Assembly: GCA_025358925.1 (NCBI GenBank)
Contig: JANYHT010000016.1
Coordinates: 1-64,000 of the forward strand
Reading direction: 5' to 3'
DNA length: 64,000 nt
Origin: Gemmatimonadaceae bacterium
GTDB lineage: Bacteria > Gemmatimonadota > Gemmatimonadetes > Gemmatimonadales > Gemmatimonadaceae
A program made the translations under genes and the position numbers. Below, in pieces: positions 35,586 through 63,556 of this stretch (within the stretch, counting starts at the first letter, position 1; each line of letters begins with the position of its first letter). A model generated the notes under the pieces. The model was not told the origin of the DNA and searched no databases. It saw nothing but the letters and a program-made list of their open reading frames with translations.

Positions 35586-35975
35586 ATGGCCGTCAAGATT
35601 CGTCTCCGCCGCGAAGGCCGGAAAAAGACCCCGATGTACCGCATCGTCGTTGCTGATTCGCAGAGCCCGCGCGATGGTCGCTTTATCGAAATCATCGGCC
35701 AGTACCAGCCGCGTTTTTCGGGGGACACCGCGATCAATTTGCAGGTCGATCGGGTCAACTATTGGCTGAACGTTGGGGCCCAGCCCACGGACACGGTGCG
35801 CGCCTTGTTGCGTCGTGCTGGGGTGCTCAAGGAGCGCCACGAAGCGCGTCTGACGGCCAAGGGTGTGGTGATCAAGCCGAAGGCTGGCAGCGTGCCTGCT
35901 ACGCCGATGAGCGACCTCATGCCGCCGCCGGGCCCGGTGGTGATGCTCGCGGACGACGTGGGCGACGAGAAGTAA
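35586..35975 (+). CDS. rpsP: 30S ribosomal protein S16
   Basis: Small-subunit ribosomal protein that aids 30S assembly. The sequence opens with VKIRLRREGRKKTPMYRIVV followed by ADSQSPRDGRFIE and IGQYQP, the S16 hallmark. The remaining core (RVNYWLNVGAQPTDTVRALL) is standard. At 129 residues it is longer than the usual 80-90 because of a C-terminal extension rich in Pro, Lys and acidic residues. The ATG at 35586 begins the conserved sequence exactly. rimM follows after one base. Confidence 0.97.
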   Translation: MAVKIRLRREGRKKTPMYRIVVADSQSPRDGRFIEIIGQYQPRFSGDTAINLQVDRVNYWLNVGAQPTDTVRALLRRAGVLKERHEARLTAKGVVIKPKAGSVPATPMSDLMPPPGPVVMLADDVGDEK

Positions 35976-35976
35976 G

Positions 35977-36498
35977 CTGACCGAATTTTTAGTAGTCGGA
36001 CTGGTGCGTCGCGCGCATGGGGTGCGCGGCGCCCTCGCCGTCGAATCGTTGGTAGATGCGCCGGCTGCGATTTTCGCGTCCGGCGCTGTGCTTGTGGCCG
36101 GTGATCGTCAGGGCAATCCCGCCGTGAACGGCGAGTTGCACATTGAAGACGGTCGTCCGATGAATCGGGAGTGGTTGGTGAAATTTTCTGAGATCGACAA
36201 TCGAGATGCCGCCGATTTGTGGCGCGGACGATATCTGTTGGCCGATCGCGCGCGCATTGCGCCGCTGAGTGATGACCAGGTCTATATCGCATCGTTGATG
36301 GGCATGCACGTGGAAGTCGAAGGGCAAGGCGTTGTCGGTCGCGTGAAGGATGTCTACAACGCGCCGCAGGGACTGTTGATTGAAGTGCAGACGGCCACGG
36401 GAACGCCGCTCGTGCCATGGCGTCCCGAACTCATTGCCCGCGTTGACGAAGACACGCGAACGATTGTGCTGAAGCCGCTCGAAGGGTTGCTCGAGTAG
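35977..36498 (+). CDS. rimM: Ribosome maturation factor RimM, apparent CTG start
   Basis: Assists 16S rRNA processing and 30S head maturation, binding S19. The conserved N-terminal strand and loop, FLVVGLVRRAHGVRGALAV, begin upstream of the first GTG (36004). In this frame there is no ATG, GTG or TTG between the stop at 35941-35943 and 36004. The only plausible initiator is CTG 35977, one base after the rpsP stop, giving 173 residues, the normal RimM length. The C-terminal PRC-barrel part includes GVVGRVKDVYNAPQG and VPWRPELI. The nearest ribosome-site-like bases are GAGAAG within the rpsP end. If the GTG were used, the core strand would be lost. Confidence 0.85.
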   Translation: MTEFLVVGLVRRAHGVRGALAVESLVDAPAAIFASGAVLVAGDRQGNPAVNGELHIEDGRPMNREWLVKFSEIDNRDAADLWRGRYLLADRARIAPLSDDQVYIASLMGMHVEVEGQGVVGRVKDVYNAPQGLLIEVQTATGTPLVPWRPELIARVDEDTRTIVLKPLEGLLE

Positions 36499-56297: not shown

Positions 56298-57241
56298 GGT
56301 GTATCGCGTGTGCGCGGGTCGATGGCGTGTATCGCGATGTCCGCGACGAGATTCAACGCCATGACGGTCACCGATCCGCACATCAAGAACGCCATGAGCA
56401 CAGTGTAGTCACGCTTTACCAGCGACTCGGTGAACAAGCTGCCGACACCGGGCCACGCGAAAATACTTTCAGTAACCACAGCACCCGAGGCCATGATAGA
56501 GGCATCGAGCAAAACCACCGTGACGAATGTCGGCAGTGCATTGGGTAGTGCGTGACGCAATAACAGGGCGCGTGCGCGAACGCCGCGTGCACGCGCCGCG
56601 CCAACGAACGGTTGCGCAAGCATTTCACGCATGGCACGCCGCAAGTAGCGTGACCAGGATGCCGCAAACACCGCCGCGAGAACAGTGATGGGCAGCACGA
56701 GGTGTGCGACGCGGTCTCCGATATCTCCACGATCAAACGAGGCGCGACCGGACGACGGTAACCAGCCCAGCCAGCCGGCAAAGCAAAGCTGCAGAACCAA
56801 CCCGAACCAGAACACCGGCAACGAGATCCCAGCGACGGCGAGCAGCGTCGTTGCACGATCAAATCGACGATGCGCCCCCGCGAGTACTCCAACACACAAC
56901 GCCACGAGCAGCGCGGCGATACTCGAGAGGCCGACGAGTTCAATCGTCGCCGGCACACGTTCGACGATGCGGAGAAACACGGGCCGGCCATCGGCAAAGC
57001 TGTACCCCCAATCTCCACGCACAAACGCCCACAGCCACGCGAGGTATTGCGCGCTCAGCGAACGGTCGAGTCCCATCGCGCGTCGCAGTCGTGCGATATC
57101 TTCCGGGCGTACATTGGGATTCTCGAGATACGTCGCTACCGGTCCACCCGGCGCTGCATGAATGAGCGCGAAGACCAGCAGTGAGATTACGAACAGCAGC
57201 GGCACACTTTGCAACAGTCGCCGCGCGATCAGTCGTGTCAC
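56294..57241 (-). CDS. ABC transporter permease, DppB/OppB type
   Basis: Partner permease of the peptide-type importer, 315 residues from GTG 57241, which overlaps the stop of the binding-protein gene as GTGA. Typical DppB features: LLFVISLLVFALIHAAPGGPV near the N-terminus, RRAMGLDRSLSAQYLAWL, the docking loop GAARARGVRARALLLRHALP and the end region GSVTVMALNLVADIAIHAID with DPR. Six membrane segments are visible. An alternative start at 57274 would extend the overlap. Confidence 0.93.
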   Translation of the reverse strand: MTRLIARRLLQSVPLLFVISLLVFALIHAAPGGPVATYLENPNVRPEDIARLRRAMGLDRSLSAQYLAWLWAFVRGDWGYSFADGRPVFLRIVERVPATIELVGLSSIAALLVALCVGVLAGAHRRFDRATTLLAVAGISLPVFWFGLVLQLCFAGWLGWLPSSGRASFDRGDIGDRVAHLVLPITVLAAVFAASWSRYLRRAMREMLAQPFVGAARARGVRARALLLRHALPNALPTFVTVVLLDASIMASGAVVTESIFAWPGVGSLFTESLVKRDYTVLMAFLMCGSVTVMALNLVADIAIHAIDPRTRDTP

Positions 57242-58845
57242 GGCGGCGACAACTCCCACGCGTACACATTCCAAAACGGCCCAGCATTGGTGGGGTTTCC
57301 GGTAAAATTCCGCAGCCGTACCGGGACGGCGTCAATCTTCGAGGTGTTGTACAGCGGCAGTTCAGGCACTAGATCCGCGACTCGGCGTTGCGCGGTGCGG
57401 AGCAGCGCATTCCGCGCTGGAATGTCAACGGTGCGATCTGACGCATACAGCAATGCTGTCAGTGTATCGTCGGTGAAGAAATTAATATTGCGTCCGGCTG
57501 GCGGCGTACGATCAGCAGCGAAGAAGAGCGTAATTTCGGGGTCTGCACCTTGCTGCCACCAGTGGAGCATCCCGTCAAAGTCACCTGCGAACCACAGCCC
57601 ACTAATCGACGTACCGTCAACAAGGCGGACGTTGGCTTCTACGCCTACGTCACGCCACTGACGCTGCAGCGTTTGTGACACGGTCTCACGAATGGCAAAC
57701 CCCGCCTGCGTAATCAGTGTGAAAGACAATCGATGCCCATCCTTTGTTCGCACTCCGTCGGCACCGACTGTCCATCCAGCATCATCAAGCAACCTCCGCG
57801 ATTTGACCGGATCGAATGCGTACGTGGTCACGTTCGGCTCATAGGCGGGCGACAACGGTTGAATTGGACCGTTCACCACTTGCACGAGCCCATCGAGAAT
57901 GGTGCGTACGAGCAGTTCGCGATCAATCGCATGTGCAAGCGCACGACGTACGCGCACATCGGCGAACGGTGGAAAGTGCTTCTCGTTCAGTGACACATGC
58001 TCGTACCCATTTCCGACAACCTGATTCAATCGCACGCTCGGGATTGCACGAAGCTCGCGCACCTTATCCCACGGCACCAACGCGACGAGCTGGACTTCAC
58101 CGGACTTAAGTTGATTAATGCGCGTCGTAGTGTTGGTCAAAAATCGAAACAGAATACGTTTGATTTTCGGAAACTCGGCACCGCGCCAATAGTTGGGCGA
58201 CCGTTCCAGAAGGATGTATTCACCCGTTTTCCATTCAGCGACCTTGTACGGACCAGTGCCGAGCGGTGCGCGATTGTACGCGGTGGCGCGATCAATATTT
58301 TGACCATCCAGTACGTGCTTGGGCAGCGTACCGCGTGCAAACTGCTGCTGATATGGCGCGTACACTTCACGATAGTGCACAACGGCCGTTAGTGAGTCGG
58401 GCGTGTCAACCGACGTGATGCGATCAAAGCCGTCAACGCTTTCTGGTTTCCAATCGCCTTTGTTAATCGCGTCGACCGTGAACTTGACGTCGGCGGAGGT
58501 GTGGGGCACCCCGTCATGCCACCGCACCCCCGGCCGCAGTTTCCACGTGACGTCCATTCCACCATCCGCACGCATCCGAACGCCGCCGTTGGTCGTCGTC
58601 GGAATATCTGCCGCAAGCACCGCCACCACATTCATCTTTTCATCGTTTGTTACCAATCCTTCAACGACGCACGACTCGATGTCTTCAAGAATATGTGTGG
58701 CGTATCGATTCATGGTGTCTGGTTCACGATCGTAGCCCACCGTCAACAAATCGTTCGACGCGCCCGTTTGCTTCACCTCACCGCGACACCCGAGACAGCA
58801 GGCAACAGCGAGCACGCGCGCAGACTTGCGATAGGTGCCAATCAT
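57238..58845 (-). CDS. Peptide-type ABC transporter substrate-binding lipoprotein
   Basis: Solute-binding protein of family 5 (DppA/OppA-like), 535 residues, with a lipobox near the N-terminus (AVACCLGC). Conserved pieces are TWKLRPGVRWHDGVPHTSADVKF, PLGTGPYKVAEWK, ILLERSPNYW and VRVRRALAHAIDRELLVR, matching the family's two-lobed fold. It captures an oligopeptide-like ligand in the periplasm for the two permeases encoded after it. The ATG overlaps the DUF885 stop (ATGA). Ligand cannot be read from sequence. Confidence 0.93.
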   Translation of the reverse strand: MIGTYRKSARVLAVACCLGCRGEVKQTGASNDLLTVGYDREPDTMNRYATHILEDIESCVVEGLVTNDEKMNVVAVLAADIPTTTNGGVRMRADGGMDVTWKLRPGVRWHDGVPHTSADVKFTVDAINKGDWKPESVDGFDRITSVDTPDSLTAVVHYREVYAPYQQQFARGTLPKHVLDGQNIDRATAYNRAPLGTGPYKVAEWKTGEYILLERSPNYWRGAEFPKIKRILFRFLTNTTTRINQLKSGEVQLVALVPWDKVRELRAIPSVRLNQVVGNGYEHVSLNEKHFPPFADVRVRRALAHAIDRELLVRTILDGLVQVVNGPIQPLSPAYEPNVTTYAFDPVKSRRLLDDAGWTVGADGVRTKDGHRLSFTLITQAGFAIRETVSQTLQRQWRDVGVEANVRLVDGTSISGLWFAGDFDGMLHWWQQGADPEITLFFAADRTPPAGRNINFFTDDTLTALLYASDRTVDIPARNALLRTAQRRVADLVPELPLYNTSKIDAVPVRLRNFTGNPTNAGPFWNVYAWELSPP

Positions 58846-60539
58846 GTCTGACTCGATTCCATCATCGCGGCGACGAGTGCAACCGGAATCGCACCTCGCG
58901 ACAGCACGGCGTCATGAAATGTTCGTAGCGAGAAGGCCTTACCGCCGCGCTCCTGCATCCGGGCACGAAGGTCACGAATGCCGCGCGTGCCGAGCCAATA
59001 CATCACGGCTGTACACGGAAACATTGAATTTTTCTGTGCTTCGGCCGTGGCCGTCTCCAGTGGCATCCCAACCTCGGTGACGTAAAACTGAATCGTATCG
59101 AGTAATGAAAATGCACCTGTATGCAACTGTATATCGGCGATCGCGCGCGCCAGCAACCGTACCCGCGTGTGCTGTTCCGACAGGCGTTCCGCATCAGTGA
59201 GCAGTCCAAGTTCTTCCATCAACCCGGTTGCGTAACATGCCCATCCCTCGGCCATCGTGCCACCACAGAACATGCTGATGCGGCTCGCGCAGTCCACCGC
59301 CGCGATCTGACCAAGACGTGAAGTAGATCGATGGTACGCATGCCAATTTTGCACGTGATGACCAATGCCACCGTGATGCACGACATGATTGAGTGTAATA
59401 GCGCTGTGGTTCCATGCCCGCAATCGCCGCTCTCGCTCGTGCGCATCGATTGTATCGTCAATTGGTGTGACGACATACTCGTGTGTTGTGTACACGTCGA
59501 ACGGCGCCGGCGAGCGATAGAAAAGCCAATACAGAAACGGCGCGGAGGCACGGGCCCACATCGGGATCGGTACGAAGCGGATCGGCCACTCGGGCCACAG
59601 TACCGCGTCATGGCGCAGTGCAAGCGCTTCGCAGGCCTTCCAGCGAAGAGAAAACGTTGCTAAGTATTGCTCAGCGCTTGGATGATCTGTGGCCATTGCT
59701 TGCTGCGCTTCGCTAAGGGTCCAATTGCGATGCGCAAGCATCTGTGCGAGCGTTGCTTGCTCCGCCGTCAACTCTCGCGTGGCTTGCACGAGGATATCAG
59801 TCGCGGAATGCGCGCTGAAATGTCCTCGGCGCAGCAAGGTGTCGTACAGGGCAGCGCCGCACGCGAGTGACGCATCTGCAGCGTGCGGTCGTTCCGCTAA
59901 CCAACGCTCGCACGCGGCGAACGCATCGCGTGCACGAGAGGCGGCGACCCGCACTGTCTCAGCACCGTCGACGTCGCACGGCTCCTCGGTAAGCCAGAGT
60001 TCCAGACCCTCGCCAAACAGCAGCACTGCGGCGCGGCACTCTTTGCGCGCGCGTTCAATCCACGGCGCGGGAATCTTCGCATCGAGCGTGGTACGCATCA
60101 CGCGCAAGAAGTCATCGGTTGCCGTTAGTCTTGCCGCTAGCGATGGCATCCGATCATTACGGTTCGCGAACGGGCGAATCATCAACGACACCGCGCCGAA
60201 AATTGCTTCACCGGTCCAAAGGGCCGGATTGCGATCGTGAAAGAAACCACTCTCGAATTCCGCCAAGCGCACGTCGATGTTCGCGCGCGCCAGTTCGGCG
60301 TCCAGCAAGTCGACATCTGCGTTGAGTGCTGCTGCGAACGCCGGAAGCGGTACATGCAAAACTGGATGCGCCGTGGTCAACGCGTGATGCAACGCGCGCA
60401 TCTCCTCGGCTTCTGTGGCGCGCGCGGCACGCGACCAATCGGGCAATTGCGCATCATGCGCATGTATGCCGGTAAAGGTCGCGCTTACCGGATGCCTCCC
60501 GTAGTACTGCGTGAGGAACGCATCGACGAGCGCGCTCAG
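58842..60539 (-). CDS. DUF885 family protein, apparent CTG start, altered HExxxGH motif
   Basis: A 565-residue DUF885-family protein, a group of putative zinc peptidases. Conserved N-terminal sequence (SALVDAFLTQYYGRHPVSAT) lies upstream of the first TTG (60446). No ATG, GTG or TTG exists between the in-frame TAA and that TTG, leaving CTG 60539, which overlaps the oxidoreductase stop as CTGA and has GGAG 8 nt upstream. The metal-site motif, normally HEAxPGH, reads HHGGIGHH (388-395), so the catalytic glutamate is replaced by histidine; GTMAEGWACYA is kept. No signal peptide, so apparently cytosolic. Possibly a modified or non-peptidase member. Confidence 0.85.
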   Translation of the reverse strand: MSALVDAFLTQYYGRHPVSATFTGIHAHDAQLPDWSRAARATEAEEMRALHHALTTAHPVLHVPLPAFAAALNADVDLLDAELARANIDVRLAEFESGFFHDRNPALWTGEAIFGAVSLMIRPFANRNDRMPSLAARLTATDDFLRVMRTTLDAKIPAPWIERARKECRAAVLLFGEGLELWLTEEPCDVDGAETVRVAASRARDAFAACERWLAERPHAADASLACGAALYDTLLRRGHFSAHSATDILVQATRELTAEQATLAQMLAHRNWTLSEAQQAMATDHPSAEQYLATFSLRWKACEALALRHDAVLWPEWPIRFVPIPMWARASAPFLYWLFYRSPAPFDVYTTHEYVVTPIDDTIDAHERERRLRAWNHSAITLNHVVHHGGIGHHVQNWHAYHRSTSRLGQIAAVDCASRISMFCGGTMAEGWACYATGLMEELGLLTDAERLSEQHTRVRLLARAIADIQLHTGAFSLLDTIQFYVTEVGMPLETATAEAQKNSMFPCTAVMYWLGTRGIRDLRARMQERGGKAFSLRTFHDAVLSRGAIPVALVAAMMESSQT

Positions 60540-61672
60540 GACGCGGGCTCCGAAACGAGCGGGATCGATACCCAGCGCCTCTCGCGAAATGAGCGCTCGA
60601 CCGCGTTAATCAATTCCTGCACATGCGCGCCGTCTTCGAAATTACCTTCGTTCTCCGGACCGTCGCTGAGTATTTCCGAAATTAAAGAGCTCACCAAGTT
60701 GGCGTAAAACGACGAACGCCATGACTCGGACTTACTGCCTCCCGGAGGATAAAATCGTGCGGGAATTTCGAGCTCGCGGAATTCGACGTGATCTGCACTG
60801 GCGGCCTTGAGAGACTCGCAGACCCCGTTTTCCTCGACCAATCGACAAATCAACGCACCCTTGCTGCCATAGACGCGCGCCTCAAGCCCCGGATAATTGC
60901 CCACCGTGACAAAACTTGTTTGCACTGAGCCAATTGCACCGTTCTCAAACTCTCCGATAAAAATGTCGCCATCGTCAATGTTCATGCGCATCATTGTTCC
61001 CGTAGCCCGTACAACACGCTCCGGGACAAAGTTTTTCATCGTGCCGACGACCGCCTTGAAGCGACTGCCCATGAACAAGTGCCCGAGATCCATAATCGGC
61101 GCGCCATAGCCTTCTAACGACGACACTTGGATGACCGACTGATCAGCCTCGTGGTCGACTTGTCGCAACGGATTGAGTGGATCGAGAAATTGCGAGTTCT
61201 GTTCGTAACCGTTGTAGATAAATGGCGTGCCGATAAAGCCATCATCGATCAGTTCCTTCATATAGCGCATGGCCGGACTATACCGAAAGGTGAAGCCCAG
61301 CTTCGTCTTCAGCCCCTTCGATTTCGCGAGTGCCGCTGCGCGGAGCGTTTCGGTGTAGTCATACGCAACCGGCTTTTCGCATAACACATGCTTGCCGGCT
61401 TCCAACGCCGCCCAGCTTAGCGCAAAGTGCGTCGCACTCGGTGTACACACGTCGACGAGATGGATATCGGGTCGCGCAATCAGCGCTTCGTGGGAGTCGT
61501 AGACGTCCGGAATACCGAACTCGGTCGCAAACTCCTGTGCACGTGCCAAAAGCGGATCAGCGATGGCGACCAGCTCGCAACGCGGATCGCGCAAGTAACC
61601 CGGTATGTGTGCAAATTTCGCCCACGCGCCAGCGCCCAGTAAGCCCACGCGAACTTTTCCTCGATCAGTCAT
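60536..61672 (-). CDS. Gfo/Idh/MocA family NAD(P)-dependent oxidoreductase
   Basis: A 378-residue dehydrogenase-like enzyme with an N-terminal Rossmann fold (VRVGLLGAGAWAKFAHIPGY) and VDVCTPSATHF, followed by the family marker GKHVLCEKPVA and a C-terminal beta-sheet substrate domain with KLGFTFRYSPAMRYMKEL and EGYGAPIMDLGHLFMGSRF. Typical substrates are sugars or inositols, but none can be named here. The ATG follows the TAG of the preceding DUF885 gene directly (TAGATG), and its own stop overlaps the CTG of the next DUF885 gene. Confidence 0.92.
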   Translation of the reverse strand: MTDRGKVRVGLLGAGAWAKFAHIPGYLRDPRCELVAIADPLLARAQEFATEFGIPDVYDSHEALIARPDIHLVDVCTPSATHFALSWAALEAGKHVLCEKPVAYDYTETLRAAALAKSKGLKTKLGFTFRYSPAMRYMKELIDDGFIGTPFIYNGYEQNSQFLDPLNPLRQVDHEADQSVIQVSSLEGYGAPIMDLGHLFMGSRFKAVVGTMKNFVPERVVRATGTMMRMNIDDGDIFIGEFENGAIGSVQTSFVTVGNYPGLEARVYGSKGALICRLVEENGVCESLKAASADHVEFRELEIPARFYPPGGSKSESWRSSFYANLVSSLISEILSDGPENEGNFEDGAHVQELINAVERSFRERRWVSIPLVSEPAS

Positions 61673-63412
61673 CTATTGAATTACTCGCGACGTATCGCCT
61701 GGCAGCAGGAGTTGACGGTGCGCCCAGATAGGCGCGATACCATTGGTCATGATGCGTTCGTGAAACGCGCGTAAGTCGAACGCCGGCCCGAGTTTTGTTT
61801 TGTAATCGCGGCGTAGCGTGAGCAGTCCACGCTTGCCGAGAAAGTATCCACCGTACGTCGGATCGTACGCAGCGCGTTCGGCTTCTCGTCGTGCGGCGGG
61901 TGCCGCCACGTATGCTTGCTTCTCGAAGCACGATTGTGCGTCGTCAAACGTCCATGCCTTTGTGTGCAGTTTGATGCCCGACAGCAACCGACAGACACGC
62001 GTAAGTGCGTCACTAAGTTGCGCCAACTGCAAGCGCGGGTCGCCATCGCCGAACTTTTCTTCCACCATGAGCTGCTCTGCGTAGTGCGCCCAACCGTCCT
62101 GTCCGGATGACGGTTGCGGGAATGGATTAAGCCCAATCCAAATGCGTCGCACTTTACCCGGTGTGTGGCGCATGTACGTGGAGTGCAACCAGTGTCCCGG
62201 CATCGCTTCGTGCGCGGCCGTGTTAACAAGCGACGCATAGTTGTAGCGCTCTAACCACGCTTCTTGCTGTGCCGGTGTCATGTCGGCGTTCGCGTCGGTG
62301 ATGTAGAAAATGCTCTTCACCGGAACGCGCTCCAGCGGCGGCGACGCGTGCATGGAGGCAAAGCCCAAATCAAACGCTGGCGCTGGTGCGACTATTACTC
62401 GTTCACCGATGGGAATCGTGGCCAACTTATGTGTCATTACAAAGTCGGTGAGTGAATCAACGAGGCGCTGTGTTGCCGAAACGACGGCGCCGCGCTGTGG
62501 ATGGTTTCGTCGTACTTCGAGCCAAGTCCGCAATGGATCACGTCCCGGCGCGAGACGCGCGGCCGCGGCACGGAACTCGCGCTGCCCGTTGGCAAGTTCG
62601 CGCTCGCCGAGTGCGACGAGGTCACCTAACGGCTCATCAATTAATTCTTCTGCGCGGTATCGTCGCGCGACGTTTGCACCACCAATCGTAAAATCGCCAC
62701 TCGCCCTGGGCACAACATCGGTTTCAAGCCATGTCGCATAGGCGTCGACAAGTGGGTACGCGATGGTGATCGCGCGAACGAGCGAGTCCATGAGTGGCGT
62801 GCGCTCCTGCGAGGCGAACGCGAGCCGCACGTCCTTCGCCAACATGTCTGATGCACCCCGCATCATGACCACGCCACGCTGCGCGAAGAGCCTGGGGGGA
62901 TTCACAATGTTGGTACGAGCCGCGCCGAGCAGCTTGGGTACGTCTGACAATTTATGAATGATGTCTCGCATGCGGACCGGTGCGGGCGCATTCTCCATCG
63001 TCATCAAATTGTGGATGCCATCCGAAAGTGCGGACGCGTAAATCATCGGATTGCGACGCCAGTTTTGGAGTGTTTCCTGCTCCAACAACCAACCATCGAT
63101 AATCCCGTCAAGGATCTTCTGATCCACACGTTCGTCGATCGTGAGTTGCGCGTTCGCGAACGCGCGGAGTCGTGTCCGTGATCGTTTCAGCGCGGCAATT
63201 TCGCGCTGCACCGCCGGTGCGGAAAAATCGTCGAGCTGGTCGTCGTGGGTATGAATGCCGTTGCCGGCCGCGATGGACGGATGACGTTGCGCGAACTCAT
63301 CGAGATACGCGTCGACGAACAGTGCGAACGTATCGGACGAGTGCGGGGGAACCGCGGCGAGAGGAACAAGACAGCACGCGAGCAGGGCGATGGAAACGAG
63401 TCGGGAAGGCAT
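61673..63412 (-). CDS. Secreted DUF885 family putative zinc peptidase
   Basis: A 579-residue DUF885 protein with a signal peptide (RLVSIALLACCLVPLAAV). It keeps the canonical metal motif HEAMPGH (His401, Glu402, His407) and the downstream DGWAHYAEQLMVEE glutamates, so it should be an active metallohydrolase in the periplasm or outside. The N-terminal TFALFVDAYLDEFAQRHPSI matches the other DUF885 protein two genes downstream, making them distant paralogues, one exported and one apparently cytosolic. I chose ATG 63412 for the signal peptide; 63448 is an in-frame alternative. It is the first gene of the run that leads to the ABC importer. Confidence 0.9.
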   Translation of the reverse strand: MPSRLVSIALLACCLVPLAAVPPHSSDTFALFVDAYLDEFAQRHPSIAAGNGIHTHDDQLDDFSAPAVQREIAALKRSRTRLRAFANAQLTIDERVDQKILDGIIDGWLLEQETLQNWRRNPMIYASALSDGIHNLMTMENAPAPVRMRDIIHKLSDVPKLLGAARTNIVNPPRLFAQRGVVMMRGASDMLAKDVRLAFASQERTPLMDSLVRAITIAYPLVDAYATWLETDVVPRASGDFTIGGANVARRYRAEELIDEPLGDLVALGERELANGQREFRAAAARLAPGRDPLRTWLEVRRNHPQRGAVVSATQRLVDSLTDFVMTHKLATIPIGERVIVAPAPAFDLGFASMHASPPLERVPVKSIFYITDANADMTPAQQEAWLERYNYASLVNTAAHEAMPGHWLHSTYMRHTPGKVRRIWIGLNPFPQPSSGQDGWAHYAEQLMVEEKFGDGDPRLQLAQLSDALTRVCRLLSGIKLHTKAWTFDDAQSCFEKQAYVAAPAARREAERAAYDPTYGGYFLGKRGLLTLRRDYKTKLGPAFDLRAFHERIMTNGIAPIWAHRQLLLPGDTSRVIQ

Positions 63413-63556
63413 AAGGCGCAAAGTGCGGCCTGCACCATCACCTCGCAATTCGATTCACGGCATTTCGCATCGATATCGCGACACACATTGCTGAAACACA
63501 ACGGGACGAATCTCCGGAGAAATCCGCCCCGTGCAGATCAATCGCCTATTGCAGCT

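Follow-up and report, generated by a model that had tools for sequence, protein, structure and literature searches.

Conserved CTG codons as probable starts of DUF885, rimM and lon at coupled gene junctions in Gemmatimonadaceae

In a 64,000-nucleotide stretch of a Gemmatimonadaceae genome (hereafter the window), a gene for a DUF885 protein follows a Gfo/Idh/MocA oxidoreductase gene, and its predicted start codon is a CTG that shares bases with the oxidoreductase stop. We put the probability at about 0.85 that this CTG (60539) starts DUF885 by termination-reinitiation, that rimM and lon are started in the same way, and that the weak codon is kept to limit the downstream product. At all three junctions the paired genes lie on the same strand, with stop and start either overlapping as CTGA (DUF885 and lon) or separated by one nucleotide (rimM). 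The sequence-only reading had proposed CTG initiation in coupled operons of this organism; comparison with relatives supports this for at least three genes (DUF885, rimM and lon) but not as a general feature. The features in the window are collected in Table 1.

Table 1. Positions of the features at the DUF885 and rimM junctions of the window
Feature	Position	Strand	Basis
Gfo/Idh/MocA oxidoreductase, upstream partner of the coupled pair	60536..61672	-	ORF list; PF01408, PF22725, PF02894
TGA stop of the oxidoreductase	60538-60536	-	ORF list
GGAG, Shine-Dalgarno-like, 8 nt 5' of the CTG	60548..60551	-	sequence
CTG, predicted start codon of DUF885, shares bases with the TGA (CTGA)	60537..60539	-	sequence and orthologue comparison
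DUF885 protein, 565 aa counted from the CTG	58842..60539	-	PF05960; alignment of homologues
TTG, earliest canonical start in the DUF885 frame, rejected as start	60444..60446	-	downstream of invariant P17, V18, F22, G24
ATGA junction of DUF885 with the next gene, CTGA-like geometry with a canonical start	58842..58845	-	
Solute-binding protein, gene after DUF885	57238-58845	-	ORF list; profile matches
rpsP (30S protein S16), gene before rimM; stop TAA at 35973-35975	35586..35975	+	TIGR00002; sequence
CTG, predicted start of rimM, one nt past the rpsP stop	35977..35979	+	CTG in 26/28 genus loci
rimM, 16S rRNA maturation factor, 173 aa from the CTG	35977..36498	+	TIGR02273, residues 5-171 against profile 2-166

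The DUF885 junction in the window and in its orthologues

The oxidoreductase ends in TCC TGA, and the DUF885 frame, CTG AGC GCG, begins one base earlier. The CTGA overlap and the GGAG 8 nt upstream, both pointed out in the sequence-only reading, were found at the positions given in Table 1. Its further observations, that the conserved N-terminus extends past TTG 60446 and that the frame offers no other start codon, also held. Open from 60605, the DUF885 frame has its first ATG, GTG or TTG at TTG 60446; the non-canonical codons upstream of the CTG are ATT (-17), CTG (-12) and ATC (-10), counted in codons relative to CTG 60539. PF05960 matched residues 17-558, numbered from the CTG, over profile positions 1-530 of 532, and the first profile position therefore corresponds to residue 17, which lies 5' of TTG 60446. 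Furthermore, P17, V18, F22 and G24 were invariant in an alignment of 30 homologues. The first 31 codons from the CTG are accordingly predicted to be part of the DUF885 protein, and the proof of the predicted CTG start is comparative and does not come from the genome alone.

DUF885 orthologues were searched for in the family Gemmatimonadaceae, with a match in 136 of 179 genomes, and in contigs of named genomes, which yielded 38 loci, many of them titled Gemmatimonadaceae or Gemmatimonadetes. After duplicates of one contig were merged and alignments starting after residue 12 were left out, 63 distinct rows were retained, 25 of which (L010 included) were dropped because they had no in-frame TGA junction between -45 and +9 nt relative to the slot, or because the fetched stretch included no oxidoreductase. 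Among the 38 orthologues with an in-frame NTGA junction to the oxidoreductase, the start slot read CTGA in 19, ATGA in 9, GTGA in 9 and TTGA in one. The slot is CTGA in genome G044 (L009) and GTGA in G045 (L022), while G043 lacks a close DUF885 orthologue. No ATG, GTG or TTG occurred from -10 to +6 codons in 16 of the 19 CTGA orthologues, so that 16 of the 38 junctions had a CTG and no canonical alternative that preserves the conserved residues; the remaining three rows were CTGATG (L008 and L030) or had a TTG/ATG 5-6 codons on (L123). In seven orthologues (L007, L009, L011, L013, L015, L122 and L126) the oxidoreductase was four codons shorter and the CTGA had shifted with the stop. In a tree of both proteins, CTGA occupied the deep branches of a clade of 27 taxa that includes several genera, and ATGA and GTGA were confined to one nested subclade, apart from a GTGA in L027. 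In addition, the window was compared with its nearest relative, L003 (87% identical). Counted by codon position of the DUF885 frame, the differences were (5, 1, 1) just before the CTG and (3, 2, 7) just after it; a switch of coding frame from the oxidoreductase to DUF885 at the CTG would give this pattern.

The Shine-Dalgarno-like element was less constant than the start slot. GGAG or AGGAG recurred before the CTG in L125, L123, L006, L012 and L121, but it was replaced by GGGG in L003 and was missing in L004, L005 and L049. Shine-Dalgarno matches of at least 4 nt were present in 6 of the 19 CTGA orthologues (the above five and L001) and in 5 of the 16 that lack a nearby canonical start, compared with 6 of 54 control TGA stops preceded by C in a sample of the window's own genome; because such matches also occur at these control stops, GGAG alone is weak evidence. 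In the last oxidoreductase codon the C of the CTGA occupies the third position, and in most rows a silent change to A, G or T would be open to it, any of them making a better start. Within the 27-taxon clade the N of NTGA required three changes, against a mean of 6.6 changes at 98 four-fold degenerate oxidoreductase sites, 9 of which also required three or fewer. For this gene alone, selection on the C at the junction is suggestive only.

Several features of the neighbourhood were recorded in passing. The oxidoreductase is flanked by two DUF885 paralogues, at 61673-63448 and 58842-60539 (minus strand), which are approximately 25% identical, and in many relatives the contig with the orthologue has a second match about 2.8 kb away. 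The usual motif of DUF885 proteins is HExxH-like, HEAxPGHH. The upstream paralogue has HEAMPGHW at the corresponding motif, and the protein behind the CTG has HHGxxGHH at about residues 385-395, with H388, H389, G393, H394 and H395 invariant in 30 homologues. Because the usual glutamate is absent, the chemistry of this subfamily may differ.

CTG codons at rimM and lon and the search for further cases

A sample of 712,781 bases of the 4.0-Mb genome, window included, in which 562 genes were called, contained 120 in-frame NTGA junctions. ATGA (53), GTGA (37) and TTGA (8) were the common geometry that the sequence-only reading had described. It had also taken the DUF885 junction as strong internal evidence for CTG initiation and had proposed that CTGA junctions would be in excess genome-wide. 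In this sample no excess was seen: 22 of the 120 junctions were CTGA, C preceded 54 of 132 other TGA stops, and all 21 other CTGA junctions had a closer canonical start. Ten of the 22 were CTGATG, with the ATG one codon later, and in most of the rest a canonical start was only a few codons away; the most distant one was that of the DUF885 junction (31 codons downstream and none upstream). A coding-like stretch of at least 20 codons before the first canonical start was found in 2 of the 562 called genes, DUF885 among them. Three other junctions were considered as further CTG starts and set aside: at C12+79988 an ATG at +16 opens what by eye is a twin-arginine-like signal, and canonical starts lie at +14 in C3+134778 and at -10 in C20+7318.

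A second CTG lies in the window at the junction of rpsP and rimM, which reads TAA G CTG; this is probably the codon that the sequence-only reading had counted as its first CTG start. In a search of 30 genomes of the genus, two of which gave no match, 28 rimM loci could be compared, and in 26 of them the predicted start was a CTG one nucleotide after the rpsP stop, the exceptions being L154 (TTG) and L157 (neither). As this CTG does not overlap the stop, nothing upstream holds it in place. The codon was invariant in all 26 CTG loci, while none of 8 other leucine columns was codon-invariant. The next canonical codon was at +15 in six genomes, and a GTG 4-5 codons downstream was a possible alternative start in 11 of the 26. 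In other genera, rimM was matched in 33 of 35 genomes, and the 30 loci compared mostly had ATG or GTG near the start; three of them (L207, L209 and L227) had an in-frame CTGA with no ATG, GTG or TTG listed upstream or close by.

The lon gene was identified by TIGR00763, and three of the 30 genus genomes were excluded because they had only weak lon-like matches (best < 35% identity). In all 27 loci compared, the CTG predicted to start lon shared bases with the clpX stop (CTGA); L275, the locus of the window's own genome, has this CTG four codons upstream of the conserved LPVLPLRD core. The C of this CTGA is a four-fold degenerate site in clpX, and the last clpX codon was GCC in 27 of 27 loci. 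Across clpX, invariance was seen at 3 of 163 four-fold sites and in 1 of 26 alanine columns (24 loci; three with too little clpX sequence were left out). The CTG was thus kept beyond synonymous expectation at both lon and rimM. In the genus of G088-G090, the lon CTG stood two nucleotides after the clpX TAG in 3 of 3 genomes (L287, L293 and L297), indicating that it is conserved independently of the junction geometry, although L287 has an ATG ten codons on as a possible alternative start. One locus of another genus (L283) also had lon with a CTGA overlap, and most other genera had ATG and a longer spacer. An AAGGAAG before lon was dropped as a candidate selected ribosome site, as it was also kept in genera where lon is not adjacent.

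To look across genes irrespective of codon, 342 ortholog pairs from syntenic 400-kb blocks of two single-contig genomes (G043 and G045, both with the rimM and lon arrangement) and the own-genome sample were compared. In 169 of them both members had a same-strand stop close to the N-terminus, and these were scanned for a non-canonical codon conserved beside that stop and lacking a canonical start around it. The only well-conserved loci were rimM and lon; two other rows, with CGC and CCG, had poor downstream identity. No new non-canonical start appeared in 18 further rows of coupled pairs. Three automatic screens of G043 and G045 for start-less extensions, each over 191 pairs, flagged 39 pairs, 55 pairs and 29 hits. 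They were noisy, since alignments entered the upstream gene where it overlaps or had their first residue within a variable N-terminus, and were not counted as evidence; the codon-blind scan took their place.

The initiation machinery was also inspected. In 6 of 6 genomes the initiator tRNA gene had the GGGCTCATAACCC stem-loop with a CAT anticodon and three G-C pairs; neither the anticodon nor the stem G-C pairs were changed in any of the six. The infC gene is the classic case of an AUU start, which serves IF3 autoregulation. In the genus (30 genomes searched, five with no match), 25 of 25 loci (L228-L252) had an invariant ATT at the presumed infC start, nine codons ahead of RVN. With an ordinary-looking initiator tRNA and an infC codon that fits the classic start, there is no sign of an altered decoding system. 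Separately, a gene designated B200 (L178-L197, in the G045 block) encodes a small membrane protein that by eye resembles an NADH dehydrogenase subunit. It has a TTG start in G043; in G045 it has no ATG, GTG or TTG, only CTA, ATT and ATC, and an in-frame stop lies just upstream, so that another non-canonical start is possible there.

A proposed reinitiation mechanism and its alternatives

We propose that a ribosome finishing the oxidoreductase at the overlapping TGA would reinitiate at the CTG with ordinary fMet-tRNA, and that GGAG or GGA, roughly 8 nt before the CTG, may assist at some loci. Across the genus, rimM (behind rpsP) and lon (behind clpX) would be started by the same arrangement. 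As the CTG would be read poorly, the downstream product would fall below the upstream one, yet the two genes would still be coupled. The data show the position of the slot, its conservation, the lack of other starts and the synonymous constraint at lon and rimM; we infer initiation at the CTG, reinitiation by the same ribosome, a low yield and selection for that low yield. Poor reading of the CTG is the reason we would give for its being kept, and the weak codon is probably maintained by selection to hold downstream expression low. CUG makes up 0.024% of bacterial start codons and has 0.86% of AUG efficiency, according to the accessible part of PMC11497404, a low efficiency for lon or rimM if coupling does not make up for it.

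It is also possible, if rather unlikely, that the CTG is the start but is neutral, a relic kept by descent that initiates weakly without benefit. The DUF885 data agree with this to a degree, since the N of NTGA is only modestly conserved, with 9 of 98 four-fold sites changing as rarely, and has shifted to ATGA or GTGA in one subclade and in L027. The other two genes speak against it: the codon is unchanged in 27 of 27 lon loci and 26 of 28 rimM loci, though synonymous sites carry G almost as often as C, and GTG, ATG or TTG would be one step away and silent in clpX. A more elaborate and doubtful idea is that rimM, lon and infC form a group whose poor starts sense initiation fidelity. Scarce mature 30S subunits or IF3 would improve the reading of CTG and ATT and raise RimM, Lon and IF3 until fidelity returns, with the weakness of the start as sensor and the coupled junction as amplifier.

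The remaining alternatives do not place the start at the CTG. There is a very small chance that the true start is another near-cognate codon (ATC, ATT or ACG); ATC and ATT do occur upstream in the DUF885 frame and infC keeps its ATT in 25 of 25 loci, but within each family the CTG is the only such codon shared at one place by members with no canonical start. That DUF885 begins at TTG 60446, with accidental conservation upstream, is hardly credible. This TTG is the first ATG, GTG or TTG in the open frame, but we rejected it because P17, V18, F22 and G24 would be lost, together with part of the Pfam domain; moreover, ATGA and GTGA orthologues begin at the same slot as the CTG, and L005, L009, L011, L013 and others have no equivalent of this TTG. 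Equally hard to credit is a fusion protein made by stop readthrough or programmed frameshifting, which would suit genes that overlap or almost touch; however, readthrough would be in frame 0, orthologues carry ATGA or GTGA at the same slot, and the frame relation differs between loci (-1 at DUF885 and lon, +1 at rimM, +2 at lon of the G088-G090 genus), which excludes a single mechanism of this kind.

Relation to known systems

If reinitiation at a selectively kept CTG is the right reading, the genus retains CTG starts in housekeeping genes, and start calling limited to ATG, GTG and TTG would truncate these proteins. The junctions would also be natural, conserved test cases for the open question of why bacterial genes so rarely start with CUG, and for whether ribosomes that reinitiate choose the start codon less strictly than those that initiate. 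A search of the literature on Gemmatimonas start codons, mostly in non-subscription papers and parts of their text, gave matches that were unrelated judging by title and opening of the abstract, and no report of these CTG starts.

In the accessible part of a review (PMC12548453), NTGA is the commonest spacing of overlapping gene pairs. As described in the accessible parts of that review and of two papers on coupling (PMC6728339, PMC10666635), reinitiation-coupled NTGA (-4 nt) pairs resemble the junctions reported here in the shared stop/start bases, the common strand and, at some loci, a Shine-Dalgarno-like match inside the upstream gene; the difference is that N is C here. Neither CTGA nor CTG occurs in those parts of the two papers, nor CUG in that of the review, so such starts may be overlooked elsewhere. 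With the rare bacterial CUG starts our cases share the need for fMet-tRNA to pair with CUG, and they differ in being conserved genus-wide in housekeeping genes and at coupled junctions. The infC AUU start, likened here by codon pattern alone, is likewise a conserved non-canonical start in a translation gene, but the codon here is CTG, not ATT, and is coupled to an upstream gene. Finally, ribosome density in the E. coli rpsP-rimM-trmD-rplS operon is ten-fold lower over rimM and trmD than over rpsP, according to the accessible part of PMC4378010, which suggests that less RimM than S16 is normal there and that a weak start would achieve such a lowering; in this genus, by difference, the CTG start could do the lowering.
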